This document shows, one piece after another, positions 11,041-27,254 of a stretch of 64,000 bases of DNA. The notes under the pieces were generated by a model. That model saw nothing but the letters and a program-made list of their open reading frames with translations. It was not told where the DNA came from and made no database searches. The DNA is taken from positions 219,980 to 283,979 of the forward strand of contig NZ_BMZF01000004.1 in assembly GCF_014652655.1 (NCBI RefSeq). The letters run 5' to 3'. The position numbers and the translations under genes are program-made. Every line of letters begins with the position of its first letter. Position 1 is the first letter of the stretch. The stretch comes from Paramylibacter ulvae. Lineage in GTDB: Bacteria > Pseudomonadota > Alphaproteobacteria > Rhodobacterales > Rhodobacteraceae.

Positions 11041-11084
11041 ACTGTGTGACATCTGTCGGACAAATGGCGGACAAGTGTATGGCA
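11041..11084 (-). repeat. Array of 11-bp direct repeats upstream of prfC (array A)
   Basis: Four consecutive 11-bp units end in GACA or GGCA on the plus strand: boundaries 11041-11051, 11052-11062, 11063-11073 and 11074-11084. Read toward prfC the central units are TGTCCGCCATT and TGTCCGACAGA, preceded by GCCATACACT. The array ends 43 bases before the prfC start codon. It matches array B upstream of serS in unit, phase, orientation and flank. The 11-bp phasing is typical of winged-helix or LexA-type direct-repeat operators; the binder is unknown. Confidence 0.7.
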
Positions 11085-11115
11085 TGCGTGGGGTGTTTTG
11101 GCAGATGTTGTCATT

Positions 11116-11136
11116 TGGATATTTAAAACATTTGGA
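11116..11136 (+). repeat. 21-bp intergenic repeat, copy 1
   Basis: This copy reads TGGATATTT...ACATTTGGA and differs by one base from the copy at 13686-13706. A third, more divergent copy is at 25798-25818. It is followed by AGGG and lies about 80 bases before the 11215 gene. Confidence 0.55.
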
Positions 11137-11214
11137 AGGGTGTGGCGGTGTTAGGAATGGTGCCTTTGCTTGTAAATTGTCAGTGGCGGCATAGATATAA
11201 TGGAAGGGGGAATT

Positions 11215-11694
11215 ATGAAAATAATATCACAAGACAGTAATCGGATGGTTGTGTGTGAGGACAATAAAGTCATGCGCATGTTTTTTGGTGCGTTTTTATT
11301 GGCTGGCTTTTATTTCATTTACAAAGTGGTATCAGGGCAGCTGGGCGATTATTTTGGGGCGGTTTTGTTTTTCGTGATGCCAATGGCAGGGTTGATGTTT
11401 TTTGCACCTGTCACGGTAATGACAATAGATCGCCAACAGAATGCGGTGCTGCATTCCCATAAACACCCGCTGCGCGCGGCTGATGAAACACGATATGAGT
11501 TATCGGATATCTCAGGGATCTGGTTTGCGCGGTTACGCGGTGATCATCGCGGGATGCGGCGCGTGTTGTTTCGGGTGCGGGATGCGAATGTCGGGTTCAC
11601 ATTACACAGTTTTGGTATATTTCGCGCAGAGACCATGCATACAGTTGTGTCTGAAATGCAGAAATTCATGAATATTGGTGGTGATCCCAGATAA
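11215..11694 (+). CDS. Hypothetical membrane protein
   Basis: A 159-residue protein with two adjacent membrane helices near the N-terminus (about residues 17-38 and 46-68), a short loop, and a C-terminal soluble domain of about 85 residues. The layout, with a strand-rich domain in which an arginine-rich stretch and FRVRDANVGFTLHSFG occur, recalls small bacterial PH-like membrane proteins, but I cannot confirm that. ATG 11215 has GGAAGGGGG upstream; an earlier ATG at 11200 is less suited. It stands alone between prfC and the SDR gene. Confidence 0.7.
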   Translation: MKIISQDSNRMVVCEDNKVMRMFFGAFLLAGFYFIYKVVSGQLGDYFGAVLFFVMPMAGLMFFAPVTVMTIDRQQNAVLHSHKHPLRAADETRYELSDISGIWFARLRGDHRGMRRVLFRVRDANVGFTLHSFGIFRAETMHTVVSEMQKFMNIGGDPR

Positions 11695-11759
11695 TGCCAT
11701 TTCTGCTGGACGTGGTGCGATGATGCGTTAGTCTGCGCCAAAAGCAGAAGGAATGCATT

Positions 11760-12536
11760 ATGGATTTAGGAATCAAAGGCAAACGCGCGATCGTATCGGC
11801 GGCGTCAAAGGGGCTTGGTTTTGGCTGTGCAGAGGCATTGGCAAAAGCGGGCGTTGATTTGGTGATTTGTGCGCGGACACAAGAAACATTGGACGCGGCG
11901 GCAGAAAAATTGCGTGTACACGGTGTGGATGTGACTGCGGTGGCGTGTGACATCACAACCGAAGCGGGACAAAAGCAGGTTTTGGATGCGGCGGGCCATG
12001 TAGATATTTTGGTCACCAACGCAGGTGGGCCGCCCCCCGGTGTGTGGTCTGATTGGAATCGTGATGATTTCATCAAGGCGCTGGACGCCAATATGTTAAC
12101 ACCAATTGCGTTGATGAAGGCCTGTTTGCCAAGCATGATGGAACAGGGTTGGGGTCGTGTGGTGAATATCACTAGCCAATCCGTGAAAGCACCGATTGCA
12201 GCACTTGGCCTGTCTAATGCCGCACGCACAGGGTTGACGGGTTATGTTGCAGGAACTGCGCGCCAAGTGGCCGGAAGCGGTGTGACAATTAACAACCTGT
12301 TGCCTGGGATTCACGCAACTGATCGTGCGGTTTCCTTGGATACTGGCGTGTCCAATGCGCAAGGGATCAGCATGGATCAAGCGCGTAAAAACCGCGAGGG
12401 CACCATTCCTGCAGGGCGTTATGGCGAGGCATCTGAATTTGGTGCGGCCTGCGCGTTTTTATGTTCAACGCAGGCTGGGTTTATCGTTGGGCAAAACCTA
12501 TTGCTTGACGGTGGCGCGACATTGGCGACGATTTAA
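11760..12536 (+). CDS. Atypical SDR family protein, 3-oxoacyl-ACP reductase-like
   Basis: A 258-residue Rossmann-fold protein. The cofactor loop is SAASKGLGFG instead of the classical TGxxxGxG, and the NAG motif (VTNAGG) and the active-site serine region (NITSQSVK) are present. At the place of the catalytic YxxxK it reads GLSNAARTG, so the tyrosine is leucine and the lysine is arginine. Family knowledge: a subgroup of BKR-like SDRs is known for exactly such imperfect tetrads. It may therefore bind a nucleotide without classical dehydrogenase activity. Its stop directly abuts the alkC start, so the two are almost certainly co-transcribed. Confidence 0.82.
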   Translation: MDLGIKGKRAIVSAASKGLGFGCAEALAKAGVDLVICARTQETLDAAAEKLRVHGVDVTAVACDITTEAGQKQVLDAAGHVDILVTNAGGPPPGVWSDWNRDDFIKALDANMLTPIALMKACLPSMMEQGWGRVVNITSQSVKAPIAALGLSNAARTGLTGYVAGTARQVAGSGVTINNLLPGIHATDRAVSLDTGVSNAQGISMDQARKNREGTIPAGRYGEASEFGAACAFLCSTQAGFIVGQNLLLDGGATLATI

Positions 12537-13661
12537 ATGGCAGAAAAGTTCAGCCTGAAAGACGAGTTGTTCAACCTTGATCGGGTGACTTATCTGGCTG
12601 AACTTTTCCATGCATCAGATTCTGAATTTGATCGGGATGGGTTTATTGCAGCCGTGATGGAGCGGATGCTGGATCTGGAATTGATGGCGCGCATTGGCTG
12701 GATCGCGCAATGTTTGACGCGGTTCTTACCAGATGATTTTGCAAATGCAGTGGATCGGATTGAAGCGGCATTGCCGCCAGAGCTCGATCCGAGCAAATCA
12801 GATGATGATTTTGGCAGCTTTATTTTTGCGCCTCTCAGTGAATATGTGGTGATGCACGGGCTGAATGATCAGCATTTTGAGCGATCAATGGTGTTGTTAC
12901 ACGCAATTACACGCCGCTTTTCTGTGGAATTTGCGATGCGGCATTTTTTGATCAGATACCCCGAGCGGGTGCTGGCGATATTTGATGAATGGGCGCGCGA
13001 TGACAATTATCACGTGCGCAGGTTAGTCAGCGAAAGCACGCGCCCCGTGTTGCCGTGGGGCAAGAAGGTCGCGCTGGAACAGACGCAAACGATACCGCTG
13101 TTGGATCAGTTATATGCCGATCGGACACGGTTTGTGACGCGATCAGTTGCCAATCACCTGAATGATATTTCCAAGATTGACCCAGAATTGGTGGTGGCGA
13201 CATTGCACGATTGGCGCAATCGTGGAGCGCAGGACGCAAAAGAGATGGCGTGGATGTGCAAACATGCGCTGCGCACATTGATCAAACAGGGGGATATGAA
13301 TGCGTTGTCCTTGTTAGGGTATCGTGAAAATCCAGCGGTGACGGTGGGGGGCGTCACCGTGCCCAAGCGCGTGAAAATGGATGATTATTTGGAGATTTCG
13401 AGCACGATTACAGCGACGCAAGATGAGCCGTTGATCGTAGATTTCATAATAGAATTCGTCAAAGCAAATGGTGAGCGCAAGCCCAAAGTGTTCAAGTTAA
13501 AACAGTTTGAGATCAAGGAAGGGCAGGTGGTTGAACTGCGTAAACGCCACCGTTTGGTTGCCAACGCGACGACGTTTAAATTGTTTACAGGTGCGCACCG
13601 CGTGCATTTGCAAGTAAACGGGCGTGTGCTGGCGAGCACGGATTTTGAATTGATCGCGTAG
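12537..13661 (+). CDS. alkC: DNA alkylation repair protein, AlkC-like glycosylase
   Basis: A 374-residue protein whose first two thirds are helical repeats of the AlkC/AlkD HEAT-like type, including MRHFLIRYPERVLAIFDEWA and LVSESTRPVLPWG, the latter resembling the conserved strand-recognition region of AlkC. Residues about 265-374 are beta-rich and fit the C-terminal Ig-like domain found in one AlkC subtype. AlkC removes 3-methyladenine and related cationic lesions from DNA by base excision. The ATG follows the SDR stop without a gap. I am confident of the superfamily and fairly confident of AlkC over AlkD. Confidence 0.8.
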   Translation: MAEKFSLKDELFNLDRVTYLAELFHASDSEFDRDGFIAAVMERMLDLELMARIGWIAQCLTRFLPDDFANAVDRIEAALPPELDPSKSDDDFGSFIFAPLSEYVVMHGLNDQHFERSMVLLHAITRRFSVEFAMRHFLIRYPERVLAIFDEWARDDNYHVRRLVSESTRPVLPWGKKVALEQTQTIPLLDQLYADRTRFVTRSVANHLNDISKIDPELVVATLHDWRNRGAQDAKEMAWMCKHALRTLIKQGDMNALSLLGYRENPAVTVGGVTVPKRVKMDDYLEISSTITATQDEPLIVDFIIEFVKANGERKPKVFKLKQFEIKEGQVVELRKRHRLVANATTFKLFTGAHRVHLQVNGRVLASTDFELIA

Positions 13662-13685
13662 CGTGCGGATGCGCCATCGCTTTTA

Positions 13686-13706
13686 TGGATATTTTAAACA
13701 TTTGGA
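13686..13706 (+). repeat. 21-bp intergenic repeat, copy 2
   Basis: TGGATATTTT...ACATTTGGA, 20 of 21 bases identical to the copy at 11116-11136. It follows a small imperfect hairpin (GATG cgc CATC at about 13668-13678) and a TTTT run, and lies about 95 bases before the symporter gene. Confidence 0.55.
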
Positions 13707-13799
13707 GAGATGACCCAGCGTTCACGGCTTTGTCAGGAAAAGCTATGATGTGAATCGGATTTTGCGTGATAGAAGCGCGCAAATTTTAAGGGGAAAATC

Positions 13800-15221
13800 A
13801 TGGAAATATTTGCAAGCCCGTGGGCGTTGGTTGGGTTTGTTTTGATTGTGTCAGGGATCAGCCTGTATTTGGCGCCGCGCAATGTTGGGCTCGCGGGATT
13901 TTTTGAAGGGGCGGATCACGCTGGCGGACAGCCCAGTTTGTGGGTGTTGGTATTGAGCCAAGTGACCACATGGATATTTGCACGATCATTGATGAATGCC
14001 GCGATTTTGGGGTATTTTTATGGGTTTGCGGGCACGTTGGCCTATACCACATATTATCTGAGTTTTCTGACGGGTGGCTTTATTGTTGCGCGGTTGCGGC
14101 GCGATCGCGCGGGATCGGTACAGGATTGGCTGTTTGATCATTTTGGGCGTACCGGGGAATGGACTTATAATGTGGTGATTGCGCTGCGCCTGTTGTCCGA
14201 GGTGTTTGCGAATTTGATCGTTGTTGGATTAATTTTCGCGGCGGCATTTCCAGATGTGGTTTGGGCAGAAGCGGGATCGGTGATTGCCCTTGCGTTCATC
14301 GGGTTGGTGTATTCTGCGCTTGGTGGATTGCGTGCATCGCTGCGTACAGATGTGTTGCAGATGCTTATTTTTCTGGTGGTGTTTATCATCGCATTTTGCG
14401 TGATGGTGTTGGGCGATGGGTTTTCGTTTGGCGCAATTTTTGGCGCACAGGGTGTGCATGATCAGGCCAGCCGCCCAGGGTGGGTTTTGGTCGCAGTGGC
14501 CGCATTGCAAGTGTTTTCATACCCCGCGCATGACCCCGTGATGATGGACCGTGGTTTTTTGGCGGATGAAGAAACAACGCGCAAGAGCTTTGGTTTTGCA
14601 TTTATCATTTCGGCGCTGTGCATATTTGGGTTTGGCATGTTTGGTATTCAGGCAGGGTTGATTGGTGCCGCTTATGAAAACCAATTGTTGGGTACTTGGT
14701 CCACGATGTTTGGGCCGTTTGTGTATTTTCTGATTGCCGCGTCATTGTTGGTTTCTGCGATTTCAACACTGGATAGCGCGTTGGCGTCTGCTGCGCGCCT
14801 GGTGATTGATGAATTCAATGTCGCCGCACGCAGCGTGTTAAACGGGCGCATTGCGATGGTGTTCTTCATGGTCGGTGGTGCAATTTTGACCCTGTGGGGG
14901 AATAAAACATTGTTTGATGCGGTGGCGGTTTCAGGCACAGCGTCGATGTTTTTAACACCTGTTTTGATACTGGCATTCATGGGAATGATTGTGCCGCGTT
15001 GGTCGTATTTGGTGGCGTGGACGGCGGCAATTTTAGGGGCAGCGGCGTATATGTATCGTGGTACTGAACTGGTTGCGCAAATGGTGAATCCATGGATATC
15101 GGCGGGTGAAATTCACAAATACGATCAGCTATTGGTGATTTGTATCGCTGTGCTTGTTGTCGGATTTGCCGCAGGAATTTTGGGGATCATCAGCAATCGG
15201 ATACTTGCCGTTCGCGCGTGA
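13800..15221 (+). CDS. Sodium:solute symporter (SSS) family transporter
   Basis: A 473-residue inner-membrane protein with about 13 predicted helices and the character of the SSS family (TLAYTTYYLSFLTGGF; SLLVSAISTLDSALASAARL, resembling the conserved sodium-site helix near TM8). The substrate cannot be told from sequence. ATG 13800 has AAGGGGAAAA upstream. No regulator or catabolic gene is adjacent; the next gene is an ABC ATPase 62 bases downstream that may share the transcript. Confidence 0.85.
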   Translation: MEIFASPWALVGFVLIVSGISLYLAPRNVGLAGFFEGADHAGGQPSLWVLVLSQVTTWIFARSLMNAAILGYFYGFAGTLAYTTYYLSFLTGGFIVARLRRDRAGSVQDWLFDHFGRTGEWTYNVVIALRLLSEVFANLIVVGLIFAAAFPDVVWAEAGSVIALAFIGLVYSALGGLRASLRTDVLQMLIFLVVFIIAFCVMVLGDGFSFGAIFGAQGVHDQASRPGWVLVAVAALQVFSYPAHDPVMMDRGFLADEETTRKSFGFAFIISALCIFGFGMFGIQAGLIGAAYENQLLGTWSTMFGPFVYFLIAASLLVSAISTLDSALASAARLVIDEFNVAARSVLNGRIAMVFFMVGGAILTLWGNKTLFDAVAVSGTASMFLTPVLILAFMGMIVPRWSYLVAWTAAILGAAAYMYRGTELVAQMVNPWISAGEIHKYDQLLVICIAVLVVGFAAGILGIISNRILAVRA

Positions 15222-15283
15222 CACTGGTATCGCCACGCTATGCCTGATTAAATTGGTCAGGTGAAGGAACCAAGGCAACCACC

Positions 15284-16369
15284 GTGACGCAAGACGCAAA
15301 TGATACTGCAATATTGGAACTGTGCGATATTACGCGCCGTTTTGGATCGCGCAATGTGGTTGATGGACTAAGCATTCGCTTGCTTGCGGGGCAGGTGACG
15401 TGTTTGTTGGGACCATCTGGTTGCGGCAAATCAACGACCCTGCGTATCGCGGCGGGTGTTGACCAGCAAACATCTGGGCGCGTTTTGATAAATGGCGAAA
15501 CCGTATCGGGTGATGGGCATCATTTACCACCAGAATCGCGTGGTATCGGATTGATGTTCCAAGATTTTGCCCTGTTCCCGCATTTGACCGTTGCGAAGAA
15601 TGTCGGGTTTGGGATTTCGCGTGATCCCAATCGGGACGTGCGAGTGCGCGAATTGCTCGGCAAGGTTGGATTAGAGGATTTTGGTGACAAGTACCCCCAT
15701 CAATTATCGGGTGGTGAACAGCAACGGGTTGCATTGGCGCGTGCATTGGCACCGCGCCCTGCCGTGATGTTGATGGATGAACCGTTTAGCGGGCTTGATA
15801 ATCGGCTGCGTGATACCGTTCGCGATGCAACGCTGGAATTGTTGAAATCCGAAGGCACGGCAGTGTTGATGGTCACGCATGAACCAGAAGAGGCGATGCG
15901 CATGGCCGATCAGATCGCATTGATGCGCGATGGGCGTATCGTGCAATCGGGTGCGCCGTATAATATCTATAATTCCCCAGTTGATCGCCGCGCTGCAGCA
16001 TTTTTTTCCGACATTAACGTGATAAACGGTCAGGTAAACGGTGCATTAACCCGTACGCCATTTGGTGAATTTTTGACACCTGGTATTGCCGATGGAACGG
16101 ATGTTGAAATTGTTATTCGACCACAACATTTGCGCATTGATTTTGATCGCGGTGGTCGCGGCCCAAACCCAACCGTCGAAGAGGGCACACCTGCACGTGG
16201 CGTGGTGGAGCGCGCTCGGTTTTTAGGGCATCAGAGTTTGGTCGAATTTGCGATGGATTATGACAATGTGCGCCTGCATGCGGTTGTTCCAGGTGTGTTT
16301 TTGCCTAACGCGGGCACGCCATTATGGTTAAGTGTGCGCCGCGATCGGTGCTTTGTTTTTGCGCAGTGA
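15284..16369 (+). CDS. ABC transporter ATP-binding protein (FbpC/PotA-like)
   Basis: A 361-residue cytoplasmic ATPase of an importer. Walker A GPSGCGKST (residues 43-51), Q-loop MFQDFALFPHLTV, signature LSGGEQQRVALARAL, Walker B VMLMDEPFSGLD and the switch histidine VTHEPEEA are intact, followed by a C-terminal TOBE-like regulatory domain (VEIVIRPQHLRI). The overall layout is that of ferric iron (FbpC) or polyamine-type importers. The start is GTG 15284. No permease or binding protein is next to it, so it is an orphan ATPase here and its substrate is open. Confidence 0.85.
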   Translation: MTQDANDTAILELCDITRRFGSRNVVDGLSIRLLAGQVTCLLGPSGCGKSTTLRIAAGVDQQTSGRVLINGETVSGDGHHLPPESRGIGLMFQDFALFPHLTVAKNVGFGISRDPNRDVRVRELLGKVGLEDFGDKYPHQLSGGEQQRVALARALAPRPAVMLMDEPFSGLDNRLRDTVRDATLELLKSEGTAVLMVTHEPEEAMRMADQIALMRDGRIVQSGAPYNIYNSPVDRRAAAFFSDINVINGQVNGALTRTPFGEFLTPGIADGTDVEIVIRPQHLRIDFDRGGRGPNPTVEEGTPARGVVERARFLGHQSLVEFAMDYDNVRLHAVVPGVFLPNAGTPLWLSVRRDRCFVFAQ

Positions 16370-16507
16370 AGGAAATGTTTCAATAAATCGGCAAATATTC
16401 ACGCAATCGCGATTGTTTAGGCTTTGAAACCATTGAAAAAGAGCCTAACTATATATCGGAAACAAAAAAACGGCGCATCTGTGCTGGCGATTTTTTAGGA
16501 GGATCAC

Positions 16508-16747
16508 ATGATTCCAATGACACCACTTTTCATCCAAAACATTGGCTTGCCAGGCTTGCTGCTGATTGCAGTTGTGGTTCTGGTCATGTTTGGCCGTGGT
16601 AAAATCAGCAACCTTATGGGCGAGGTGGGCAAAGGCATCACCGCATTCAAAAAAGGCGTGAGTGAAGGCAAAGACGAAATGGATGCCGCACTTGAAGACG
16701 CATCCGAAGAAGCCAAAGATATTACACCCAACAAAGACAAGGCATAG
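16508..16747 (+). CDS. tatA: Sec-independent protein translocase subunit TatA
   Basis: A 79-residue protein with one N-terminal membrane helix, the conserved hinge [16 protein letters not shown], an amphipathic helix and an acidic-then-basic tail. TatA oligomers form the pore for folded proteins with twin-arginine signals. ATG 16508 follows a strong site (TTAGGAGGATCAC). The N-terminus has about eight residues before the helix, somewhat longer than in many TatA proteins. First gene of tatABC. Confidence 0.95.
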
Positions 16748-16775
16748 GCCCTGTTGCCGCGCATAGGGGATTTGC

Positions 16776-17222
16776 ATGTTTGATATTGGTATGGCCGAAA
16801 TGTTGGTCATTGGCGTTGTCGCCTTGATCGTTGTTGGCCCCAAAGATTTGCCCATGATGTTTCGCAAAGTGGGCAATTTTGTTGGCCGTGCCCGTGGCAT
16901 GGCGCGCGATTTCCAGCGTGCCATGGATCAGGCCGCGGATGACACGGGTATCAAGGATATTGGTGACACGGTGCGCAAGGCCACCGATATCAAAGATTTG
17001 GGTCTTGATACCATCAAGGACCCAATGAAATCATACGCTGACAATTTTGGCAGCGGTGCAAAATCTGCAAGCGATACAAGTGCATCGGGCGCGTCGGGCA
17101 CACCCGCAAAGGTTGCGAGCAAAACAACCGCGACCAAAACCGCCGCTAAAAAGCCTGCAAAAGCAGCGGCGAAAAAGACCACTAAAACAGCCGCAAAAAA
17201 GACCGCCAAGAAAGCAAGTTAA
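16776..17222 (+). CDS. tatB: Sec-independent protein translocase subunit TatB
   Basis: A 148-residue protein beginning MFDIGMAEMLVIGVVALIVVGPKDLP, or more precisely the usual TatB helix ending in VVGPKDLP, followed by an amphipathic helix. The last 45 residues are a lysine/alanine-rich, histone-H1-like tail of AAKK-type repeats, which is unusual in degree. TatB binds twin-arginine signals together with TatC. The stop TAA overlaps the tatC ATG (TAATG). Confidence 0.94.
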   Translation: MFDIGMAEMLVIGVVALIVVGPKDLPMMFRKVGNFVGRARGMARDFQRAMDQAADDTGIKDIGDTVRKATDIKDLGLDTIKDPMKSYADNFGSGAKSASDTSASGASGTPAKVASKTTATKTAAKKPAKAAAKKTTKTAAKKTAKKAS

Positions 17223-18097
17223 TGAGCGACACACCTGATCTGGAACATGATGATATCGAGGCGAGCTCCGCACCATTAATCGAACATCTTGCGGAATTAC
17301 GCACACGGTTAATCTATTCCGTCGGCGCATTTATCGTTGCGATGTTATTGGTGTTTTTCGTTGCTGAACCATTGTTGAATTTTCTGTTCGAACCAATTGC
17401 AAAAATCTTGCAAGAACGTGGACAGGATGCGCGCCTAATATTCACCGCCCCCCAAGAAAAATTCTTTGTCCTGTTTCGGATATCGGTCATCGGTGGTTTG
17501 ATGCTGGCATTCCCTGTGATCGCCTATCAGATGTGGCGCTTTGTGGCGCCGGGATTGTATAAAAATGAGAAGGGCGCATTTTTACCGTTTATTGTCGCAT
17601 CCCCTTTGTTGTTCCTGTTGGGCGCGGCATTCGCGCATTACGTTGTAACACCGCTGGCGATGCGGTTTTTCATCGGCTTTGGCGATATCCTTCCTGCCGT
17701 GACAGATTTGTTGACCAGCGGTGATGTGGGCAAGGTCGCCAACCCAGACGCCAGCCAAGAGTTGGAAACGGTGTTCTTAGGCTCGGTTAAGGAATCGCTA
17801 GATCTGACGTTAAAGTTCATCTTTGCCTTTGGGCTTTGTTTTCAGTTGCCTGTGTTGTTGACTTTGTTGGGTTTAGCAGGGATCGTTTCATCCCAAGGCC
17901 TGAAAGACATGCGCAAATATGCGGTTGTTGGGATCTTAACACTCGCCGCTGTGGTGACGCCCCCTGATGTGATTACACAGGTGATTTTGTTTAGCGTTGT
18001 TTACATGCTTTACGAGGTGTCCATCTGGTTGGTGATGATGGTGGAAAAGAAACGCGACGCACGCATCGCCGCCGAAGAAGCAGAGCTTGACCTGTGA
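17222..18097 (+). CDS. tatC: Sec-independent protein translocase subunit TatC
   Basis: A 291-residue, six-helix membrane protein that recognises twin-arginine signal peptides. The N-terminal block LIEHLAELRTRLIYS with the conserved glutamate and FAFGLCFQLPVLL are diagnostic. It is about 30 residues longer than E. coli TatC. The extra length lies mainly in a loop between helices near residues 155-185 (SGDVGKVANPDASQELETV). Its stop overlaps the GTG of the next ORF, so the ATPase gene is coupled to the tat operon. Confidence 0.95.
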   Translation: MSDTPDLEHDDIEASSAPLIEHLAELRTRLIYSVGAFIVAMLLVFFVAEPLLNFLFEPIAKILQERGQDARLIFTAPQEKFFVLFRISVIGGLMLAFPVIAYQMWRFVAPGLYKNEKGAFLPFIVASPLLFLLGAAFAHYVVTPLAMRFFIGFGDILPAVTDLLTSGDVGKVANPDASQELETVFLGSVKESLDLTLKFIFAFGLCFQLPVLLTLLGLAGIVSSQGLKDMRKYAVVGILTLAAVVTPPDVITQVILFSVVYMLYEVSIWLVMMVEKKRDARIAAEEAELDL

Positions 18098-18924: not shown

Positions 18925-18958
18925 ATAACTTACTGTTTTTAAAAGTAAAATATGCGTA

Positions 18959-18998
18959 TATACCTTTGGTTTATGCCAGTATACCTTTCGTTTATAGC
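18959..18998 (+). repeat. Two direct repeats with 21-bp period
   Basis: The 19-bp unit TATACCTTTsGTTTATrsC occurs at 18959-18977 and 18980-18998, 16 of 19 bases identical, separated by AG. The 21-bp period equals two helical turns, which would place two protein molecules on the same DNA face. Confidence 0.65.
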
Positions 18999-19150
18999 GC
19001 TGAATTCGAAATTTTGTTTAATTGCAGATGTTCCGTGCTGGATACCCATTTTCACTAGGTACACTTGTCGGGGACAAGGCGAGTGTAGATTTTGATTTCT
19101 AGCGTTGATGACAAAGGCGAAGGTGCAACCAGAACCGATGTCATACAGAG

Positions 19151-19179: not shown

Positions 19180-19224
19180 TGGATGCAAGTGAATAGCCCC
19201 TCTTTATTATTCACTTGCATCCAA
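19179..19224. promoter_or_regulatory. Perfect 17-bp inverted repeat overlapping the promoter
   Basis: TTGGATGCAAGTGAATA (19179-19195) is followed after 12 bases by its exact reverse complement (19208-19224). There is no T-run after it, so it is not a standard terminator. It begins at the last base of the candidate -10 and covers the start site, as an operator would; in RNA it would form a strong hairpin 29 bases before the start codon. Confidence 0.65.
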
Positions 19225-19253
19225 TACCCGTTCCTTAATTCAAAGATTGGCTC

Positions 19254-19778
19254 ATGTTAAAAATTACCCGTACCGCGATCATTGTCAGCCTTTCCATGGC
19301 GACACCAAGTTTTGCCCAACAGGCGACGACGCCTGCGGATGCTTTGGTGCGCCAATTAACCAACCAAGGTTTCACAGTTACCAAGCGCGGGCGTACATGG
19401 CTTGGCCGCACGGTTATCACTGCACACAAAGGCGCATTGGAACGCGAGATCGTCGTGGCCCGTGGGTCTGGCCAAATATTACAAGACGACTGGGTTTTCG
19501 GTGCAGAAAACGGCGCCAATGCGACATCTGAAGATGAAGACGAAAATGACGACGAAAGCGAGTCGCCCGGTGGCAATGGCATCAGCGGCGGCAATGGTAA
19601 CGGCCAAAGCGGCGGCAATGGTAACGGCCAAAGCGGCGGCAATGGCAACGGCCACGGCGGCGATAATGGCAACGGCCACGGCGGCGATAATGGCAACGGC
19701 CACGGCGGCGATAATGGCAACGGCCACGGCGGCGGTAATGGTAACGGCAATGGTCGTGGCGGCGGCCGTAATCGATAA
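19254..19778 (+). CDS. Exported protein with PepSY-like domain and Gly/Asn repeat tail
   Basis: A 174-residue protein. Residues 1-21 are a signal peptide ending SFA|QQ. Residues about 24-85 form a small domain with LVRQLTNQGFTVTKRGRTWL and REIVVARGSGQILQDD, resembling PepSY-type domains. Residues 92-105 are strongly acidic. From about 112 to the end there are eight-residue repeats (GGNGNGQS twice, then GGDNGNGH-type units) and a GRGGGRNR tail. It should be periplasmic or outside the cell. Function is unknown; the following gene encodes a membrane-anchored LuxR-type regulator on the same strand. Confidence 0.8.
   Translation: MLKITRTAIIVSLSMATPSFAQQATTPADALVRQLTNQGFTVTKRGRTWLGRTVITAHKGALEREIVVARGSGQILQDDWVFGAENGANATSEDEDENDDESESPGGNGISGGNGNGQSGGNGNGQSGGNGNGHGGDNGNGHGGDNGNGHGGDNGNGHGGGNGNGNGRGGGRNR
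19587..19757 (+). repeat. In-frame 24-bp tandem repeats within the exported protein gene
   Basis: Two copies of a 24-bp unit encoding GGNGNGQS are followed by about four copies of a related 24-bp unit encoding GGDNGNGH; three of the latter are identical at the DNA level. Unit length is a multiple of three, so copy-number changes keep the frame. There are no spacers, so this is a minisatellite and not a CRISPR. Confidence 0.85.
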
Positions 19779-19922
19779 CAGCATCGCATCGCACATCAGC
19801 GATGAATGCAAACAATGCGTGACCTAATAAAATAATAGCGCGTGATTTCTCTCTAAATTCTGGTTAACTTCGTTTTGCACACTAATTCATTTCAACACCC
19901 TGACGGTTTTTGGGGAAACACA

Positions 19923-20441
19923 TTGAACAATCGCAAGTTTTTGCTCTGGGCCACTGTTGGGATTCAGGTTTTATGTTCGGGTATCTTTATCGCCAATTTG
20001 GCGGTGTCGATTCTTGGGCTGCGTACAACAAGTATTGGCTGGCAGTTGCGTGAAACGCTTGAGGTCAGCGCAAGTGTTGGATTAATGCTGGGCGCTATTT
20101 TGGGCGTGCGTATGATTTTACGTGCTGAACGTAGCCAGCAACGCGCCGAAGAAAAGCTGCGCGGGGCATCAGATGCATTTGTGACGGTGGTCAATCAAAA
20201 ATTCGAAAGATGGGCGCTTTCGGCCGCTGAACGAGACGTCGCTTGGTTTACCATCAAAGGTTTTTCCATCAAGGAAATCGCGCAATTACGTGGATCATCA
20301 GAGGGCACGGTCAAGGCGCAGAGCAATGCGATTTATCGCAAAGTAGGCGTCAGCGGTCGCGCACAGCTTTTGTCGATCTTGGTGGATGATATGTTAATCA
20401 ACAATGATAAATTCGACGATCGCGAAGTGAACGAGTTTTAG
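19923..20441 (+). CDS. Membrane-anchored LuxR-family transcriptional regulator
   Basis: A 172-residue protein. Two hydrophobic segments (about residues 8-32 and 47-67) place the N-terminus in the membrane; a short coiled stretch (AERSQQRAEEKLR) leads to a C-terminal helix-turn-helix at about 97-155 (LSAAERDVAWFTIKGFSIKEIAQLRGSSEGTVKAQ in outline; key parts GFSIKEIA and SEGTVK) of the LuxR/NarL type. No receiver or ligand domain is seen. The start is TTG 19923, with GGGGA 6 bases upstream; no in-frame ATG fits. It follows the exported repeat protein by 144 bases and may control it. Confidence 0.82.
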   Translation: MNNRKFLLWATVGIQVLCSGIFIANLAVSILGLRTTSIGWQLRETLEVSASVGLMLGAILGVRMILRAERSQQRAEEKLRGASDAFVTVVNQKFERWALSAAERDVAWFTIKGFSIKEIAQLRGSSEGTVKAQSNAIYRKVGVSGRAQLLSILVDDMLINNDKFDDREVNEF

Positions 20442-20459
20442 TCGTATCACGCAATAAAA

Positions 20460-20489
20460 ACCACCCAACGCGCGTTCACGCTGGGTGGT
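20460..20489. terminator. Terminator between the LuxR gene and the nlpD-like gene
   Basis: ACCACCCA (20460-20467) pairs with TGGGTGGT (20482-20489), with a further GCG/CGC inside. On the minus strand it is followed by TTTTTATTG, so it best serves the nlpD-like gene; it may also stop transcription from the left. Confidence 0.8.
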
Positions 20490-20495
20490 ATTTCA

Positions 20496-21692
20496 TTATA
20501 GATATGGTGTTGGATCAACCGCTTCTGTGCCGCGGCGCACTTCGAAATGGACAAAGGGTGGGTTGCCGCCCGACACTTTGCCAATGGTTTGGCCGCGCGT
20601 TACGGTGCTGCCTTTTTTCACCGTTGCATCCGATACATTTGAATAAACTGTATAGAGGTTATCGGGGTGGCGCACCAAAATGATCGATGATCCGTTGACG
20701 GAATTGGATGTCAGCGCAACCGTACCATTTTCGGCGGCCTTGACGTCGCTTCCCTTGTTCGCGGCGAAATCAATGCCTTCGTTCCCGCCTGATTTGGATG
20801 AAAATCCGCGAAGGATTTTACCATTCACTGGTTTTAACAATTTGCGTGAACTGGTTGTTGGTTTGCGCTCTGGCGCGGCGGCCACCACTTGTTCAGCAGG
20901 CTTTGCCGCTGGTACTGGTTTTGGCAAGCTTTTGGTTGAACTGGGTGGGACAGGGGCCGACGATCCTGATCCAGGTTTGCTGACCGCTGATGGGCGCGGC
21001 GCAGGTTGGGTTGCGGTACTATTGCTGGCCACTTGAACTGGTGCTGCGGCGACCGCGGCAGAGTTATCCTCGACCGGTACCAACAATTGCTGACCTGTGC
21101 GCAGGCTTAAATCTTTGTCCAAGCCGTTCCAAGACGCAAGGGATGTAACCGACACACCGTAAAGTCGCGCAATCGTATAAGCGGTTTCACCCGATTTGAC
21201 GACATGGCGTTTGGGTTCGGTACCCGTTGGAATGCGTGCTGGTGAATTTGGTACATCGTCAAGTGCAGATGATGCGATATCCTCAACACTGGATCCGCTG
21301 ACGCCAGTTTCGGCGGGTGTGATTGCCACGCCGCGATCTGCGTTTTTCGGCAAGGCCAAAACTTCGCCATCGCGTGGCATATGATCCACCTTTAGGCCGT
21401 TAAAGCGGGCCAATTCATCGGCGGAAATCCCCACACGCGCGGCCAAATCGGTCATTGTGTCAGATCGATTTGCAACAATTACTTGATAATTCGGATAGGT
21501 AATCACCCCACGTTCATCGGCCTGAGGGCGCGATTGGGTCTTTTTGACATTGCTTCCAGGAATGGGATCAACCTTGCGGCCAATGTCGGTGATTGAACGA
21601 ATATCTTTGATATCATCGCACGCGGTAAGTGCGAAAATGCTTGCGAAAATTATACCTGTCGACAGGTGAAAACGTTTCGTTTTCAATGACAT
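20496..21692 (-). CDS. nlpD: NlpD-like lipoprotein: two LysM domains and a degenerate M23 domain
   Basis: A 398-residue protein with a lipobox (FALTAC, cysteine at 25). LysM domains lie at about residues 66-115 and 162-210, then a Pro/Ser/Ala-rich linker, then an M23 (LytM) fold from about 290. Two metal-site positions are altered: the usual HxGID reads NEGID and HLHFEIR reads FVHFEVR, so it is probably not an active endopeptidase. Family knowledge: such degenerate LytM proteins (NlpD, EnvC) activate cell-wall amidases at division. The nlpD-pcm-surE cluster is the well-known neighbourhood. Confidence 0.88.
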   Translation of the reverse strand: MSLKTKRFHLSTGIIFASIFALTACDDIKDIRSITDIGRKVDPIPGSNVKKTQSRPQADERGVITYPNYQVIVANRSDTMTDLAARVGISADELARFNGLKVDHMPRDGEVLALPKNADRGVAITPAETGVSGSSVEDIASSALDDVPNSPARIPTGTEPKRHVVKSGETAYTIARLYGVSVTSLASWNGLDKDLSLRTGQQLLVPVEDNSAAVAAAPVQVASNSTATQPAPRPSAVSKPGSGSSAPVPPSSTKSLPKPVPAAKPAEQVVAAAPERKPTTSSRKLLKPVNGKILRGFSSKSGGNEGIDFAANKGSDVKAAENGTVALTSNSVNGSSIILVRHPDNLYTVYSNVSDATVKKGSTVTRGQTIGKVSGGNPPFVHFEVRRGTEAVDPTPYL

Positions 21693-21729
21693 GTGCCTGT
21701 TTCCTTTGCCTGTTCACCCTCTGCGGGGC

Positions 21730-22380
21730 CTATCTGAGCACGCGCGGTGCGATGCCTTCTATTAATGGGACAAATCGTACGTCTTCTAATTCTTCATAAT
21801 CCAAACCTGTGGCACTTTTGGTGACCTTGATCAGGGTTTGAACCGTGTCCGACTGTCCTACTGGTAATACCATAATACCGCCCTCTTTCAACTGCGCCAA
21901 GAGGGTTGCAGGTGGATCTTCTGCAGCTGCGGTTAAAATGATGCGGTCAAAGGGGGCTTGTTCGGGCAAACCAAGCGCGCCATCCCCCACAATTATCGTC
22001 ACATTGACCACACCAAGATCGTTCAATGTTTTATTTGCTTCTTGTGCCAATGGGCGGTGGCGTTCCACGGAATAAACACGGCGCGATAACTGGCTGAGCA
22101 CGGCGGCCTGAAAGCCAGACCCCGTGCCGATTTCCAAAACCTTGTGGCGTGGACCGACCTCTAATGCTTGGGTCATTTTGCCAACGACGGATGGCATCGA
22201 TAGCGTTTGACCACAGGCAATCGGCAATGCCGCATCATCATAGGCATGTTTGGCAAAACTGCCCTGTGCAAACGGGTGGCGCGGGATCAATTCCATGGCA
22301 TGCAACACACGTTTGTCGCGCACCCCTTTGTTGCGCAACAGCAGCATGTATTGCATCATTACTTCGGGTGTCACCTGCAT
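21730..22380 (-). CDS. pcm: Protein-L-isoaspartate O-methyltransferase
   Basis: A 216-residue SAM-dependent methyltransferase that repairs isoaspartyl residues in damaged proteins. The SAM-binding motif [18 protein letters not shown], the [13 protein letters not shown] block and [14 protein letters not shown] are present. It lies 37 bases upstream of nlpD and directly abuts the surE stop, so surE, pcm and nlpD form one transcription unit on the minus strand, a classic stationary-phase or stress-survival cluster. Confidence 0.95.
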
Positions 22381-23142
22381 CTAGAACACTTCTTTCAATT
22401 GCGCGATTTGCGCGTGTGCTGTCAGATCAACATGGCAGGGTGTTATGGAAATATACCCCGCCAAATTGGCATGCACATCGGTTCCCGCAGCAGTGCTTTC
22501 ATGTTGGGGCGTGCCTTTGATCCAAAGCGTATTTTCGCGCCGCTCTGTGCTGAACGGGGAACCGTTGCGAAACCCTTGCGTGGTGATCCGATGCCCCTGC
22601 ACATCTGCGGCAGGAACGGGTGGAAAATTCACATTGTAAAACAACATGCCCTGATCAGCGGTCCAAGCATCCGCACCCAGAATTTTTTGAACTGTCTCTG
22701 CACCATATGCGCGGGCGGGATCGAATGTGTCGCAATCAAGAAGTGCGGGGCCATAAAATTGCGACAGCGCGATGGATTTTATGTCATGCATTGCCGCCTC
22801 AATCGTGGCGCCAACCGTGCCAGAATAAAGCGTGTTTTGCGCGGCATTATTCCCCTTGTTAACGCCCGAGAGGATCAGATCAGGTTTGTTGCCATCCAGA
22901 ATTTCAAACACACCCGCAATCACACAATCCGCAGGTGATCCATGCACCGCAAATGCGCCGTCGCCCCGATCATCATAATGCAGGGAATTTGTATATGTAA
23001 TGCAATGACCAACCCCCGATTGTTCAATGGCAGGAGCGACCGTAGTGATGTTATTCGCATCGGTGAGTTTGCGCGCAATATCCAACAGCACCGCCAGACC
23101 AGGTGCATCGATACCATCGTCATTGGTTATTAAAATGCGCAT
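22381..23142 (-). CDS. surE: 5'/3'-nucleotidase SurE
   Basis: A 253-residue metal-dependent nucleoside monophosphate phosphatase. The metal site ILITNDDGIDAPG is at the very N-terminus, HGSPADCVIAG and LSGVNKGNNAAQNTLYSGTV follow. I chose the start at 23142 (MRILITNDDG), preceded by GGGGACGGG; the longer ORF adds ten residues. First gene of surE-pcm-nlpD. The opposite-facing 5'-nucleotidase gene starts about 200 bases away. Confidence 0.95.
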   Translation of the reverse strand: MRILITNDDGIDAPGLAVLLDIARKLTDANNITTVAPAIEQSGVGHCITYTNSLHYDDRGDGAFAVHGSPADCVIAGVFEILDGNKPDLILSGVNKGNNAAQNTLYSGTVGATIEAAMHDIKSIALSQFYGPALLDCDTFDPARAYGAETVQKILGADAWTADQGMLFYNVNFPPVPAADVQGHRITTQGFRNGSPFSTERRENTLWIKGTPQHESTAAGTDVHANLAGYISITPCHVDLTAHAQIAQLKEVF

Positions 23143-23340
23143 CCCGTCCCCGATATAATCTGCTGTTATCACTGCTATCGGAGTTGGGGGGTGGTTAAAA
23201 GAGTCTTTTGTTCAAAAAAATGATTTCGCTTACCCTTACGTCACAAATTTGTTGCGCCAAATTGATATGTTGATTTGTGATATGTTCAAGGAGTAGGCTT
23301 TGAATAATCTTTTAACAACAACACAAAACAGGGTGCTGCT

Positions 23341-24915
23341 ATGACAAAAAAACTCCTCACTTCATTGGCATTGCTGGCGACAACGGCTGGTTATGCTTCT
23401 GCTGATTATTCGTTGACGATTCTGCATACCAACGATTTTCACGCACGTTTTGAACCAGTAAGCAAATATGATTCAGGCTGTGGCGAAGAAGATAACGCCG
23501 AAGGTAAATGTTTCGGTGGTTCCGCGCGTTTGGTGAATGCGGTTGCGGATGCACGTAAACGATCCAACAATTCCATCTTGGTTGATGGTGGCGATCAATT
23601 CCAAGGCACGCTTTTCTATACCTATTACAAAGGCAAGGTTGCCGCGGAAATGATGAACAAGATGGAATATGACGCGATGACCGTGGGCAACCACGAATTC
23701 GATGATGGGCCAGAGGTTCTGCGTGGGTTCATGGATGCGGTGAATTTCCCCGTTTTGATGTCAAACGCCGATTTTTCGGGCGAACCGAAATTGGCGGATA
23801 AGCTGGCAAAATCTACTGTGATTGAACGTGGTGGTGAAAAACTCGGCCTGATTGGCTTGACACCAATCGACACCAAGGAATTGGCAAGTCCTGGCGATAA
23901 CATAATTTTCACTGACCCGACCAATGCCGTTCAAGGCGAAGTTGACAAGCTGACCGCAGAAGGCGTGAACAAAATTATCGTGCTGTCCCATTCTGGTTAC
24001 GAAGTCGACAAAGTTGTCGCTGCTGGTACCACAGGCGTTGATGTGATCGTAGGGGGGCATTCAAATACATTGTTGTCCAACAGCAATGATGGCGCCGCAG
24101 GACCGTACCCAACGATGGTGAACGACACCGCGATTGTGCAAGCCTATGCATACGGTAAGTTCTTGGGCGAATTGAATGTCACATTTGATGATGCGGGAAA
24201 TATTACCGAGGCCAAAGGCGAGCCATTGGTTATTGATGCCACGGTCGTCGAAGACGAAGCCACCAAAGCACGCATCGCGGAATTGGCCGTGCCATTGCAA
24301 GAAATCCGCGACAAAGTCATCGGATCAGCAGCAGGTGCAATTGAGGGCGATCGCGCCATTTGTCGGATCGAGGAATGTTCCATGGGCAATCTGATTGCCG
24401 ATGCGATGTTGGATCGGGTCAAGGATCAGGGGATTTCAATCGCGTTCCAAAACTCTGGAGGTGTACGGTCTAGCATTGATGCAGGCGAAGTCACAATGGG
24501 CGAAGTTTTGACCGTGTTACCATTCCAAAACACGCTGTCCACATTCCAAGTATCAGGTCAAACAATGATTGATGCGCTTGAAAATGGTGTGAGCCAAGTG
24601 GAAGAAGTAAAGGGGCGTTTCCCACAGATCGCTGGGATGAAATTCACTTGGGACGCAAGTGTTGCACCAAATGAAGGTCGCATCCAAGACGTGATGGTGA
24701 TGAAAGATGGCGCATGGGCACCGATTGATCCAAGTGCGACGTACGGTGTTGTTTCAAACAACTTTGTGCGTGGCGGTGGTGATGGATTTAAAATGTTCCA
24801 AGATGCCGCAAACGCATATGATTTTGGCCCCGATGTGGCCGATGTATTGGCCGAGTTCATTGCCAAAAATGCGGATTACAAACCGTACGTTGATGGGCGT
24901 ATCGCCAAAAAATAA
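23341..24915 (+). CDS. Secreted bifunctional metallophosphatase/5'-nucleotidase (UshA/NT5E family)
   Basis: A 524-residue periplasmic enzyme with a signal peptide of about 21 residues (cleavage near YASA|DY). The N-terminal metallophosphatase domain has ILHTNDFHARF, DGGDQFQG, VGNHEFDDG, LSHSGYEVD and GGHSNT. The C-terminal substrate domain has QNSGGVRSSIDAGEVT and NNFVRGGGDGF. It removes phosphate from nucleotides outside the cytoplasm, salvaging phosphate and nucleosides. It is monocistronic, with its own terminator at 24931. A weak Pho-box-like element lies upstream at 23238-23255. Confidence 0.92.
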   Translation: MTKKLLTSLALLATTAGYASADYSLTILHTNDFHARFEPVSKYDSGCGEEDNAEGKCFGGSARLVNAVADARKRSNNSILVDGGDQFQGTLFYTYYKGKVAAEMMNKMEYDAMTVGNHEFDDGPEVLRGFMDAVNFPVLMSNADFSGEPKLADKLAKSTVIERGGEKLGLIGLTPIDTKELASPGDNIIFTDPTNAVQGEVDKLTAEGVNKIIVLSHSGYEVDKVVAAGTTGVDVIVGGHSNTLLSNSNDGAAGPYPTMVNDTAIVQAYAYGKFLGELNVTFDDAGNITEAKGEPLVIDATVVEDEATKARIAELAVPLQEIRDKVIGSAAGAIEGDRAICRIEECSMGNLIADAMLDRVKDQGISIAFQNSGGVRSSIDAGEVTMGEVLTVLPFQNTLSTFQVSGQTMIDALENGVSQVEEVKGRFPQIAGMKFTWDASVAPNEGRIQDVMVMKDGAWAPIDPSATYGVVSNNFVRGGGDGFKMFQDAANAYDFGPDVADVLAEFIAKNADYKPYVDGRIAKK

Positions 24916-24930
24916 GTTATAGTTTAACTG

Positions 24931-24959
24931 AAAAGGCCCTGCGTTTGCGGGGCCTTTTT
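24931..24959 (+). terminator. Intrinsic terminator of the 5'-nucleotidase gene
   Basis: AAAAGGCCC (24931-24939) pairs with GGGCCTTTTT (24950-24959) across an 10-base loop, ending in a T-run. Confidence 0.9.
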
Positions 24960-25065
24960 GCATCTATAGGTTGATATTGGGTGATCTACGTCACTGCAAT
25001 AATCATCAAAATTTGCCAGTGTTCGGTATTCGATTTTTTATCCCATATTTGGAAGGGAGACTGAA

Positions 25066-25707
25066 ATGACCAATACCGAAACGAATTTAAACACCCCACC
25101 AGAGGTCGCAGCGCAACCTGCCAATCCTGCACATGTTTGGGAAGTTGTGGTTGGATCATTTGTTGGCGGTGCTTTTCTAACAATTGCGGATTTGATATTT
25201 AACAAAAGCAATTCGATCACAGGTAAAATTGTGGATTTTGTCACGGCGCGTAACATGATTGGGCTTGGCCAAATTTGGCTGGAACTGATCGCATTTGGAT
25301 TGATGATTGGCTTGGGTTTGGGGCTTTGCTTTGTGTACCGTCCACAGACGCGATTTGGCGCATTTACCCGTGGTTCCAGCGTGATTGCGGTGCTGACAGG
25401 GATGAATATCAGTGCAACATTGATGGCTGGCGAAGCCATAGGGCAGCAATTGATGTTGCGCGGGAATGTCGATGTTGCGATTGAAAAACCGCAAGCCTAT
25501 GGCCCGCTGGGGTTGGGAACATTGTTAAATGGCGATTCCAATGCACATCTGAAAAATGTTCCGATCACGGGTATGATATCCGTAAATTGTAAAGAAACCC
25601 TAAAGGTGGGGCGCGAAGATTATTGTCCTGTGGATGTCGAACAATTGGACGCGGGCGTGCGTGAACAATTACAACCCGCTGGTCAACAGATTTGGTTCAA
25701 AAAATGA
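25066..25707 (+). CDS. Membrane protein of unknown function
   Basis: A 213-residue protein with a Pro/Ala-rich N-terminus and three hydrophobic stretches (about residues 28-45, 68-90 and 105-122), followed by a soluble C-terminal domain of about 90 residues containing two cysteines (ISVNCKE and REDYCPVD). The first helices could form an anchor and the C-terminus a periplasmic domain held by a disulfide, but this is inference. GGAAGGGAG precedes ATG 25066. It is a single-gene unit ending in a hairpin cluster. I do not recognise the family. Confidence 0.75.
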   Translation: MTNTETNLNTPPEVAAQPANPAHVWEVVVGSFVGGAFLTIADLIFNKSNSITGKIVDFVTARNMIGLGQIWLELIAFGLMIGLGLGLCFVYRPQTRFGAFTRGSSVIAVLTGMNISATLMAGEAIGQQLMLRGNVDVAIEKPQAYGPLGLGTLLNGDSNAHLKNVPITGMISVNCKETLKVGREDYCPVDVEQLDAGVREQLQPAGQQIWFKK

Positions 25708-25720
25708 TCCGCTAAAATGA

Positions 25721-25764
25721 GCAGGCAAGCCTGCATTAGATGAGCTTGGGGCCAAGCCCCAAGC
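25721..25764. repeat. Two consecutive perfect hairpins
   Basis: GCAGGC aa GCCTGC (25721-25734) and GCTTGGGG ccaag CCCCAAGC (25744-25764). Neither has a T-run; together with the terminator that follows at 25769 they form three hairpins in 74 bases. Confidence 0.7.
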
Positions 25765-25768
25765 GATG

Positions 25769-25798
25769 CCATTTGCACCAAAAGGTGCAAATGGTTTT
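25769..25798 (+). terminator. Intrinsic terminator after the 25066 gene
   Basis: CCATTTGCACC (25769-25779) pairs perfectly with GGTGCAAATGG (25784-25794) around an AAAA loop and is followed by TTTT. It lies between two convergent genes. Confidence 0.88.
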
Positions 25799-25818
25799 GG
25801 ATATTTTTACAAAATGGA
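25798..25818 (+). repeat. 21-bp intergenic repeat, copy 3 (divergent)
   Basis: TGGATATTTT...AAATGGA, 16 of 21 bases as in the 13686 copy, placed directly after the T-run of the terminator at 25769-25798 and abutting the serS stop. Confidence 0.4.
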
Positions 25819-25819
25819 A

Positions 25820-27112
25820 TTAGGCGAGTTGCCCATCCGCAGTCACCTGTGTTTTGCCGCCCAGATAGGGGTGCAATACGTCGGGCATGGTGATGGAACC
25901 ATCGGCGTTTTGGCCGTTTTCCAAAACCGCAATCAAGCAGCGCCCAACCGCAAGGCCAGAACCATTCAGCGTGTGAACGAATTCGGGTTTTTTCTCGCCC
26001 TCACGTTTGAACCGTGCGTTCATGCGGCGTGCTTGGAAATCGCCGCAAACCGAACAAGAGCTGATTTCGCGATAGGTGTTTTGGCCAGGCAACCACACCT
26101 CGATATCATGGGTGCGCTGGGCGCCAAATCCCATGTCACCCGTGCATAAAACCATGGTGCGATAGGCCAGATTGAGTTTTTCCAAAATTCCTTCTGCGCA
26201 TTTGGTCATGCGATCCAATTCCGCGCGGGAATCTTCGGGTTTTGTGACCGAAACCATTTCGACCTTTTCGAATTGATGCTGGCGCAACATGCCCGATGTA
26301 TCGCGCCCTGCTGATCCAGCCTCGGAGCGGAAACACAAGGAATGGGCAGTGTAGCGACGGGGCAGGTAATCCTCTGAAATCATTGATCCTGCAACAATAT
26401 TTGTGAGTGTCACCTCTGACGTTGGCACCAACCACCAGCCGTTTGTGGTTTGATAGCTGTCTTCGGCGAACTTGGGCAATTGGCCCGTGCCAAGCATGGC
26501 TTCGTCGCGCACGAGCACGGGGGCGTTAACTTCTGTTAATCCGTTTTCTGACGTGTGGGTATCAAGCATGAATTGCGCCAATGCGCGGTGAATGCGTGCG
26601 ATTGCACCGCTGAGCAGGACAAAGCGAGAGCCGCTGAGCTTGGCCGCAGTTTCGAAATCCATACCGGGCATGACGCCTGTGATTTCAAAATGCTCTTTAG
26701 CGTCAAAATCAAATGCTGGCGGGGTGCCCCATTTGTGGATTTCGACGTTATCATTTTCATCCGCACCCTCTGGCACATCGTCATGTGGGCTGTTGGGCAG
26801 GGCCATTAGAATGTCGTTTAATTTGGCGTCTTCCACCTTTGCCAGTTCTTCAAGATCGGCAATTTCTGCTTTCTTTTCAGCAACTAAGGTGCGAAGACGT
26901 TCGAATTCTGCATCGTCGCCTTTGGCCTTGGCGGCACCCACATTTTTGGATGCAGCGTTGCGATCGGCAAGGGCGGCTTCGGCGGCGGTGATTTTGGCGC
27001 GACGTGATTCATCAATGGCCAAAATTTCAGAGGACATCGGGGCCACACCACGTTTGGCCAAAGCGGCGTCAAAGGCAGATGGGTTTTCGCGAATTGCGCG
27101 GATATCGTGCAT
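25820..27112 (-). CDS. serS: Serine--tRNA ligase
   Basis: A 430-residue class II aminoacyl-tRNA synthetase charging tRNA-Ser (and tRNA-Sec where present). The N-terminal coiled-coil arm that contacts the tRNA (about residues 30-105, rich in Ala/Glu/Lys), motif 2 [20 protein letters not shown] and motif 3 [15 protein letters not shown] are intact. The long upstream extension in frame (about 190 residues) runs through the repeat array and is not protein-like; [10 protein letters not shown] is the family N-terminus. Array B lies 88 bases upstream of the start. Confidence 0.96.
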
Positions 27113-27199
27113 GGGTTTGTCCCTGAATTGAAGTTTCGAATTGGGGGCGTGATACACCAAACCCATCGGATGGTTAAGCCCAAATATCGCACCAAAACC

Positions 27200-27254
27200 A
27201 GCGTGGGACATATGGCGGACATGCGTGGGACAAGTGTCGGACAACTGTATGGCG
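27200..27254 (-). repeat. Array of 11-bp direct repeats upstream of serS (array B)
   Basis: Five 11-bp units at 27200-27210, 27211-27221, 27222-27232, 27233-27243 and 27244-27254; the first four end in GGACA on the plus strand. Read toward serS the units are of the type TGTCCGACACT and TGTCCCACGCA, preceded by GCCATACAGT. Array A upstream of prfC has the same flank (GCCATACAsT before the first TGTCC), the same 11-bp phase and the same orientation relative to its gene. The yajC start lies 143 bases on the other side. Confidence 0.75.

Follow-up and report, generated by a model that had tools for sequence, protein, structure and literature searches.

The 64,000-nucleotide stretch of the Paramylibacter ulvae genome analyzed here (contig NZ_BMZF01000004.1, positions 219,980 to 283,979; referred to as the window) contains two arrays of tandem 11-bp direct repeats with a TGTCC core. 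Array A (11041..11095, minus strand) consists of the units CACCCCACGCA TGCCATACACT TGTCCGCCATT TGTCCGACAGA TGTCACACAGT, the first two of which are worn, and array B (27200..27254, minus strand) of the units CGCCATACAGT TGTCCGACACT TGTCCCACGCA TGTCCGCCATA TGTCCCACGCT. Array A adjoins prfC (9391..10998, minus strand; NCBIfam NF001964 / TIGR00503), the gene for peptide chain release factor 3, a proximity that does not imply control by the array. Array B adjoins serS (25820..27112, minus strand; NCBIfam TIGR00414), which codes for serine--tRNA ligase. The divergent genes beyond the arrays are an open reading frame (ORF) of 164 amino acids with no Pfam match (11200..11694, plus strand) on the side of array A and yajC (27398..27748, plus strand; NCBIfam TIGR00739) on the side of array B. 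The initial annotation of this DNA had recognized both arrays and both gene identities, which the NCBIfam matches support, and had placed each array 40 to 90 bases before the start codon of the minus-strand gene that it faces. The measured distances from the near edges are 42 bp for prfC and 87 bp for serS. The extent and five units that it gave to array B are exact, but its four-unit array A (11041-11084) was too short by a worn fifth unit (11085-11095). The sequence GCCATACAsT, described as the shared opening of the two arrays, is indeed present in both; it corresponds to one of the 11-bp units with its core worn, the second in array A and the first in array B.

Within the window, the exact pattern TGTCC-N6-TGTCC occurs four times, always inside arrays A and B. 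Allowing up to one mismatch yields eight matches against 3.5 +/- 2.1 in shuffled sequence (at least eight in 4 of 100 shuffles), a modest excess for the window by itself. The excess of arrays is far above chance in the whole P. ulvae genome (25 contigs; hereafter G000): the two-unit pattern TGTCN3CN3TGTCN3C has 57 matches versus 4 when the pattern is reversed. A four-unit pattern (up to two mismatches) matched 41 times in this genome, 39 times in its sister species A. kogurei 4G11 (20 contigs; G020) and 6 times in the metagenome-assembled genome (MAG) UBA7416 (79% complete; G028). There was no match in the 30 other genomes of the genus, and the reversed control pattern had none in any of the 33. 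We merged the overlapping matches into 18, 18 and 4 arrays, respectively. Each of the 18 P. ulvae arrays has an A. kogurei counterpart that occupies the orthologous site and points the same way. For example, array A corresponds to locus L328 and array B to locus L329, from which it differs by two bases. Thus, the arrays before prfC and serS are kept in a close relative (the prfC site was compared with A. kogurei only). The suggestion that they are a repeat family placed by chance does not hold for members of an 18-array set maintained in two species.

One copy of the element spans 55 bp and comprises five helix-phased 11-bp units. The consensus of the inner units is TGTCC-B-M-C-R-B-N, and the first unit also allows a C at positions 1 and 3. 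One end unit of an array is often worn, and the 11-bp period is present in every array read. Scoring 38 arrays by one rule, in registers that we assigned, gave five units in 36 arrays and four in 2. Stricter cut-offs gave five units in 28 and four in 10, never more than five, and laxer ones added a sixth or seventh unit to up to 4 arrays. The profile of 36 arrays, one of which (L044) stands one unit out of register, has no core signal one unit before or after the array and carries A or T at positions 3-6 downstream in 31-35 of the 36.

Three arrays folded as single-stranded DNA formed no structure (z -0.17, 1.60 and 0.53; two of the stretches were shifted by one base), a result more in line with protein binding to double-stranded DNA than with an RNA element. 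An Rfam search up to E 1 over five loci (L031, L047, L332, L334 and L038) returned two transfer-messenger RNA models and two sub-threshold cspA matches, none of them overlapping an array. An RNA element was rejected on these grounds. The same three arrays lack the inverted-repeat fold of an integron attC or other folded recombination site and the hairpin of a miniature inverted-repeat transposable element (MITE) or repetitive extragenic palindrome, nor were inverted ends seen.

The comparison of the two species also reveals selection on the core. Over 90 units, changes are found at 18 of 450 sites (4%) in the core (positions 1-4 and 8), at 39 of 270 in positions 5-7, and at 71 of 270 (26%) in the spacer (positions 9-11). 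Fourfold-degenerate sites in eight genes of the window differ at 663 of 2171 (31%; per-gene rates of 0.15-0.40, lowest in serS). The core is thus held while the spacers drift at approximately the fourfold rate, the footprint of purifying selection. Divergence in the 200-bp flanks is 7% on the right (17 pairs) and 10% on the left (11 homologous pairs). Inside the arrays, changes are weakly clustered within units (within-array permutation P 0.03). Conversion of units between arrays, which the fast spacers might have indicated, was dropped because fourfold sites change at 31% and the spacers therefore look neutral. The selection on the core of all 18 shared copies, the helical phase and the almost invariant number of units argue for a cooperative protein site. 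The initial annotation proposed the operator of an undescribed regulator; the phasing, the selected core and the presence in the sister species fit binding by some undescribed protein. Each 55-bp copy would most likely be a docking site that one lineage-specific protein occupies cooperatively on one face of the helix.

The distribution of the arrays outside the two species raises the alternative of a selfish or inert dispersed repeat (MITE-like or akin to the Rickettsia palindromic elements) that dispersed within an ancestor or across lineages and has since stopped moving. The patchy occurrence in the genus is in its favor, as is the serS tree, which groups UBA7416 with genomes that lack arrays (G022 and a further clade of five; support 94-99) and apart from P. 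ulvae and A. kogurei. The tree is based on one gene and 29 sequences and leaves out L368 (G012, no readable start), G005 and G019 (no locus) and G014 (no match). The position of UBA7416 implies that the arrays were lost repeatedly or moved between lineages. Each of its four arrays has five units, some worn, and three of them adjoin genes for which none of the 18 P. ulvae array regions has a match. One (L338, 1973-2027 in array orientation) is embedded, in frame, in a hydroxypyruvate-isomerase-like coding sequence; the homologue of this gene in the array-free genome G022 lacks the array and is 15 bp shorter there. Against an inert repeat, neutral decay would be expected, yet the core differs at 4% of its sites versus 31% at fourfold sites, and the copies have not moved since the species split. 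The conserved core of the 18 shared copies and the missing inverted ends also differ from what a MITE or palindromic repeat predicts, and we regard this explanation as quite improbable.

Only one array place is common to P. ulvae and UBA7416 (L039/L326/L468). It is flanked on one side by ABC-F-like and BrnA-family genes, while the gene on the other side differs between the two genomes. The BrnA-family gene (PF14384; L039:3146-3547 in P. ulvae, L468 in UBA7416) starts 71-72 bp from the array in both. Its product, which we take to be a ribbon-helix-helix protein, is the only candidate binder with any link to the arrays, and a weak one.

A three-unit pattern among 101 genomes across the class, our own included, matched only the P. 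ulvae, A. kogurei and UBA7416 genomes. A scan of 84,980 species genomes, which may omit records from the P. ulvae genome itself, returned 75 stretches: 12 from A. kogurei, 1 from UBA7416, 1 from an uncultured Roseobacter, 10 from two Acidobacteria MAGs and 51 from other taxa. Neither one array (75 bases) searched against plasmids and phages nor the BrnA-like protein searched against plasmids had a match, and spread on plasmids or phages was set aside. The two Acidobacteria MAGs carry dispersed 11-bp TGTCC arrays of their own (L084, L115, L126, L132, L134, L136, L139, L153, L145 and L083), mostly with five units in one MAG, where a conserved stretch with an inverted GTGGACA comes after them, and with eight units in L145. 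The Blastocatellia MAG JAEUQI01 has 57 pattern matches and resembles P. ulvae in the mostly five 11-bp TGTCCAC units of the eight copies read. There, however, a longer conserved repeat includes the array and, after it, an inverted GTGGACA, and we claim no homology, the core having been enforced by the search pattern. Repeats of the type TGTCCAAC were found in enterobacterial and Streptococcus suis genomes and, among the matches listed, in IMG/VR contigs, and lie inside ORFs in those checked. Loci with 11-bp TGTCC repeats inside ORFs of ~300-350 amino acids are L081, L122, L160, L089, L105 and L155 (one an IMG/VR contig). The TGTCCAAC repeats within ORFs may be phage replication iterons and were set aside. 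A limited literature search (TGTCC 11-bp direct repeats, Amylibacter intergenic repeats, hotspots) found no published account of the arrays.

The genes next to the arrays bear on whether the repeats act as transcriptional operators, with an OmpR-type or ribbon-helix-helix-type regulator on five phased half-sites controlling the adjacent genes at the 18 loci. Direct repeats of 11 bp are typical of such operators, the core is under selection, and 10 of the 18 arrays precede the start of a right-hand gene that reads away from them. Three others have a gene start on the left only, and the remaining five are flanked by convergent genes, neither of which starts next to the array. This is not the promoter location that an OmpR/PhoB-type regulon predicts. 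Read in array orientation, we scored the neighbor arrangements as 5 convergent, 5 divergent and 8 tandem: the arrays are independent of gene arrangement and are not promoter markers. Nor do the neighbors share a pathway. They include a cold-shock gene, gltD, ilvE, cmk, lpd, a TerB gene, and genes for a chorismate mutase, a short-chain dehydrogenase/reductase, a YghX-type hydrolase, a PhnA-domain protein and an Lrp/AsnC regulator. Convergent placements and unrelated neighbors thus argue against the operator of a regulon, and we consider this explanation unlikely.

The narrower idea that the arrays link translation genes, put forward in the initial annotation from the pairing of prfC and serS, fails on the same grounds. 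Those two are the only translation genes among the named neighbors, and the arrays lie at scattered positions, the outcome that the initial annotation had named as refuting its idea, beside genes of mixed function. The convergent contexts and the mixed neighbors led us to reject a translation regulon. Furthermore, no TGTC-N7-TGTC was found upstream of serS in the 27 other genus genomes with a readable serS start, UBA7416 included (two of them with only 206 and 315 bp of upstream DNA).

The half-site of the Pho box is CTGTCAT and the PhoB core is TGTCAT. The arrays share the TGTC word with the Pho box, and their head-to-tail units one helical turn apart have the 10-11 bp period of OmpR/PhoB-type operators. 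Those operators, however, have two or few half-sites at promoters, whereas the arrays have five units regardless of promoters, and their core differs from that of PhoB. CenR of Rhodobacter sphaeroides binds a tandem direct repeat, a precedent for an operator of this geometry, but its motif is TGA-N8-TGA (PMC9275681). The array unit TGTCC-B-M-C-R-B-N departs from it and the CenR regulon was rejected.

A second comparison is with the type II centromere parC, the binding site of the ribbon-helix-helix protein ParR. In plasmid R1, parC comprises two groups of five repeats of 11 bp each. The likeness lies in head-to-tail direct repeats with a period near one helical turn, five 11-bp units in each array here, and the BrnA-type gene beside one array is only a lead. 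The repeats of parC are 10 bp long, continuous in pSK41 and split in two in R1 (PMC5016525), and the title of a paper cited there gives R1 ten direct repeats. Whereas the element described here has 18 chromosomal copies, parC occurs once, next to the par operon. The array neighbors that were family-tested yielded no match to ParM or ParR, the whole genome not having been searched for them.

The arrays can also be compared with chromosomal landmark sites such as KOPS (FtsK-orienting polar sequences), matS and parS; KOPS and Chi are polar, strongly biased in strand with respect to replication. The weak polarity of the arrays described below would resemble KOPS and Chi. Noc and SlmA, with ~70 and 24-52 sites scattered over the chromosome (PMC4726725), likewise have tens of short conserved protein sites. 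Their sites are palindromic and scarcer near the terminus, whereas the arrays are direct repeats with no significant depletion there.

The two edges of the arrays differ in stability. At 7 of the 18 arrays (L031, L032, L034, L036, L040, L044 and L047), homology between P. ulvae and A. kogurei breaks off no more than 60 bp from the 5' edge, in five of them within ~6 bp; at the 3' edge this happens only at L047. Such breakpoints occur in 4 of 43 intergenic spaces of a control set (binomial P ~8e-4 for 7 of 18), which comprised 144 kb from two P. ulvae contigs, including the window and its two arrays, and was scored by chained alignment, slightly unlike the array sites. The two species carry different genes at the breaks. 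For example, a HigA-like helix-turn-helix protein in one corresponds in position to a zinc-ribbon-like protein of no family in the other, and a small no-family protein to a 327-amino-acid protein with a sub-threshold winged-helix (Forkhead) match, both of them after a gyrB/parE-like gene. A DUF3800 gene is likewise opposite other genes, and a sub-threshold HEPN match is among the variable genes. P. ulvae also carries insertions of a GFA gene and of 2.6 kb after a pyrG-like gene. The names HigA, gyrB/parE, pyrG, ABC-F, zinc ribbon and hydroxypyruvate isomerase were read from sequence rather than from a family search. In the window, the two species also differ by inserted or replaced segments of up to 1.9 kb with no array nearby (near 19681-19829, 20441-20456, 36991-37807, 57031-57050 and 59775-60829). 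A 24-bp tandem repeat (TGGCAACGGCCACGGCGGCGGTAA; 7.4 copies, 92% matches) spans window positions 19571-19748, in overlapping ORFs at 19235-19827.

A double hairpin accompanies some of the 5' edges. The exact pattern has two copies in each of the P. ulvae and A. kogurei genomes and none in the 31 other genomes of the genus, and each of the four stands no more than 1 kb from an array, on its 5' side. The P. ulvae copies are L047:2008-2095 and L031:2198-2319 (G000:C10:47525 and C1:31420). Three copies folded as DNA gave z -7.5, -7.0 and -3.7. A gene-bearing segment separates hairpin and array in three of the four; in L332 the hairpin abuts the array. A weaker copy was noted in L038, ~2 kb from an array.

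These features suggest a polar landing pad, with the array attracting or bounding accessory-gene insertion at its 5' edge in the manner of attTn7 or an integron site. The excess of 5'-edge breaks over 3'-edge and control breaks and the one-sided hairpins with their intervening genes are in its favor. Conversely, the segments inspected showed neither a recombinase gene nor terminal repeats nor a duplicated target (no systematic search was made), their left boundaries differ, one lying directly after a stop codon, and 11 of the 18 arrays have no such change. PADLOC, run on ten proteins, returned only weak RmrA matches for one. A landing pad is a rather unlikely account of the arrays; such behavior might be what the arrays are for, or a by-product of the docking protein.

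The orientation of the arrays may bear some relation to replication. We measured polarity on 6-kb and 20-kb samples. The TGTCC strand is C-rich (negative GC skew) in 14 of the 18 local 6-kb regions (two-sided P 0.03). On the 1.3-Mb contig of A. kogurei, where fourfold-site skew turns over at ~960-980 kb in a terminus-like manner, 9 of 10 arrays follow the polarity (P 0.02). The turnover falls in an array-free gap of 425 kb (666-1091 kb), which by our estimate is within chance for 18 sites, and terminus depletion was rejected accordingly.

We infer one binding protein for all copies, with a chromosomal role. A process at the level of the chromosome, or a part in guiding insertions, is suggested by the variable 5' edge and, less strongly, by the polarity. 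The role would be tied to the whole chromosome (organization, segregation, fork passage or recombination) more probably than to transcription of the adjacent genes, and the 5' edge of the docking array would be a hot spot of gene turnover. That the arrays are the docking site of a lineage-specific DNA-binding protein with a chromosomal role is a tentative reading, to which we give slightly less than an even chance. Several observations weigh against it. This analysis identified no binding protein. At some of the ten arrays that precede a gene start a regulatory role is possible. The replication link has the orientation bias as its sole sign, and the bias is weak and only suggested: by fourfold skew in the nearest 20-kb sample of P. 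ulvae 13 of the 18 arrays follow it (P 0.10), and the exceptions vary with the measure (L031, L045, L047 and L048 at 6 kb; L031, L036, L044, L047 and L049 at 20 kb). The array-free gap, not being unusual, lends no support to a role in nucleoid occlusion. Finally, an element absent from 30 of 33 genus genomes has no role in a process needed genus-wide.

A more elaborate version of the docking site, which we find fairly improbable, is a previously undescribed, horizontally mobile chromosome-marking system, in which a clade-specific protein (perhaps of the BrnA ribbon-helix-helix type) would occupy five-unit 'half-parC' arrays at ~18 fixed places, with replication-biased orientation and a 5' edge that steers the exchange of single accessory genes.

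A helix-phased five-unit site that two species retain at all 18 places, and that most of their genus lacks, points to a DNA-binding system able to be acquired or lost in its entirety. Should the arrays be chromosomal landmarks, alphaproteobacteria would have in them a direct-repeat equivalent of the Noc, SlmA or matS sites. If their 5' edge steers gene exchange, the places where accessory genes land would be predictable outside tRNA genes and integrons.

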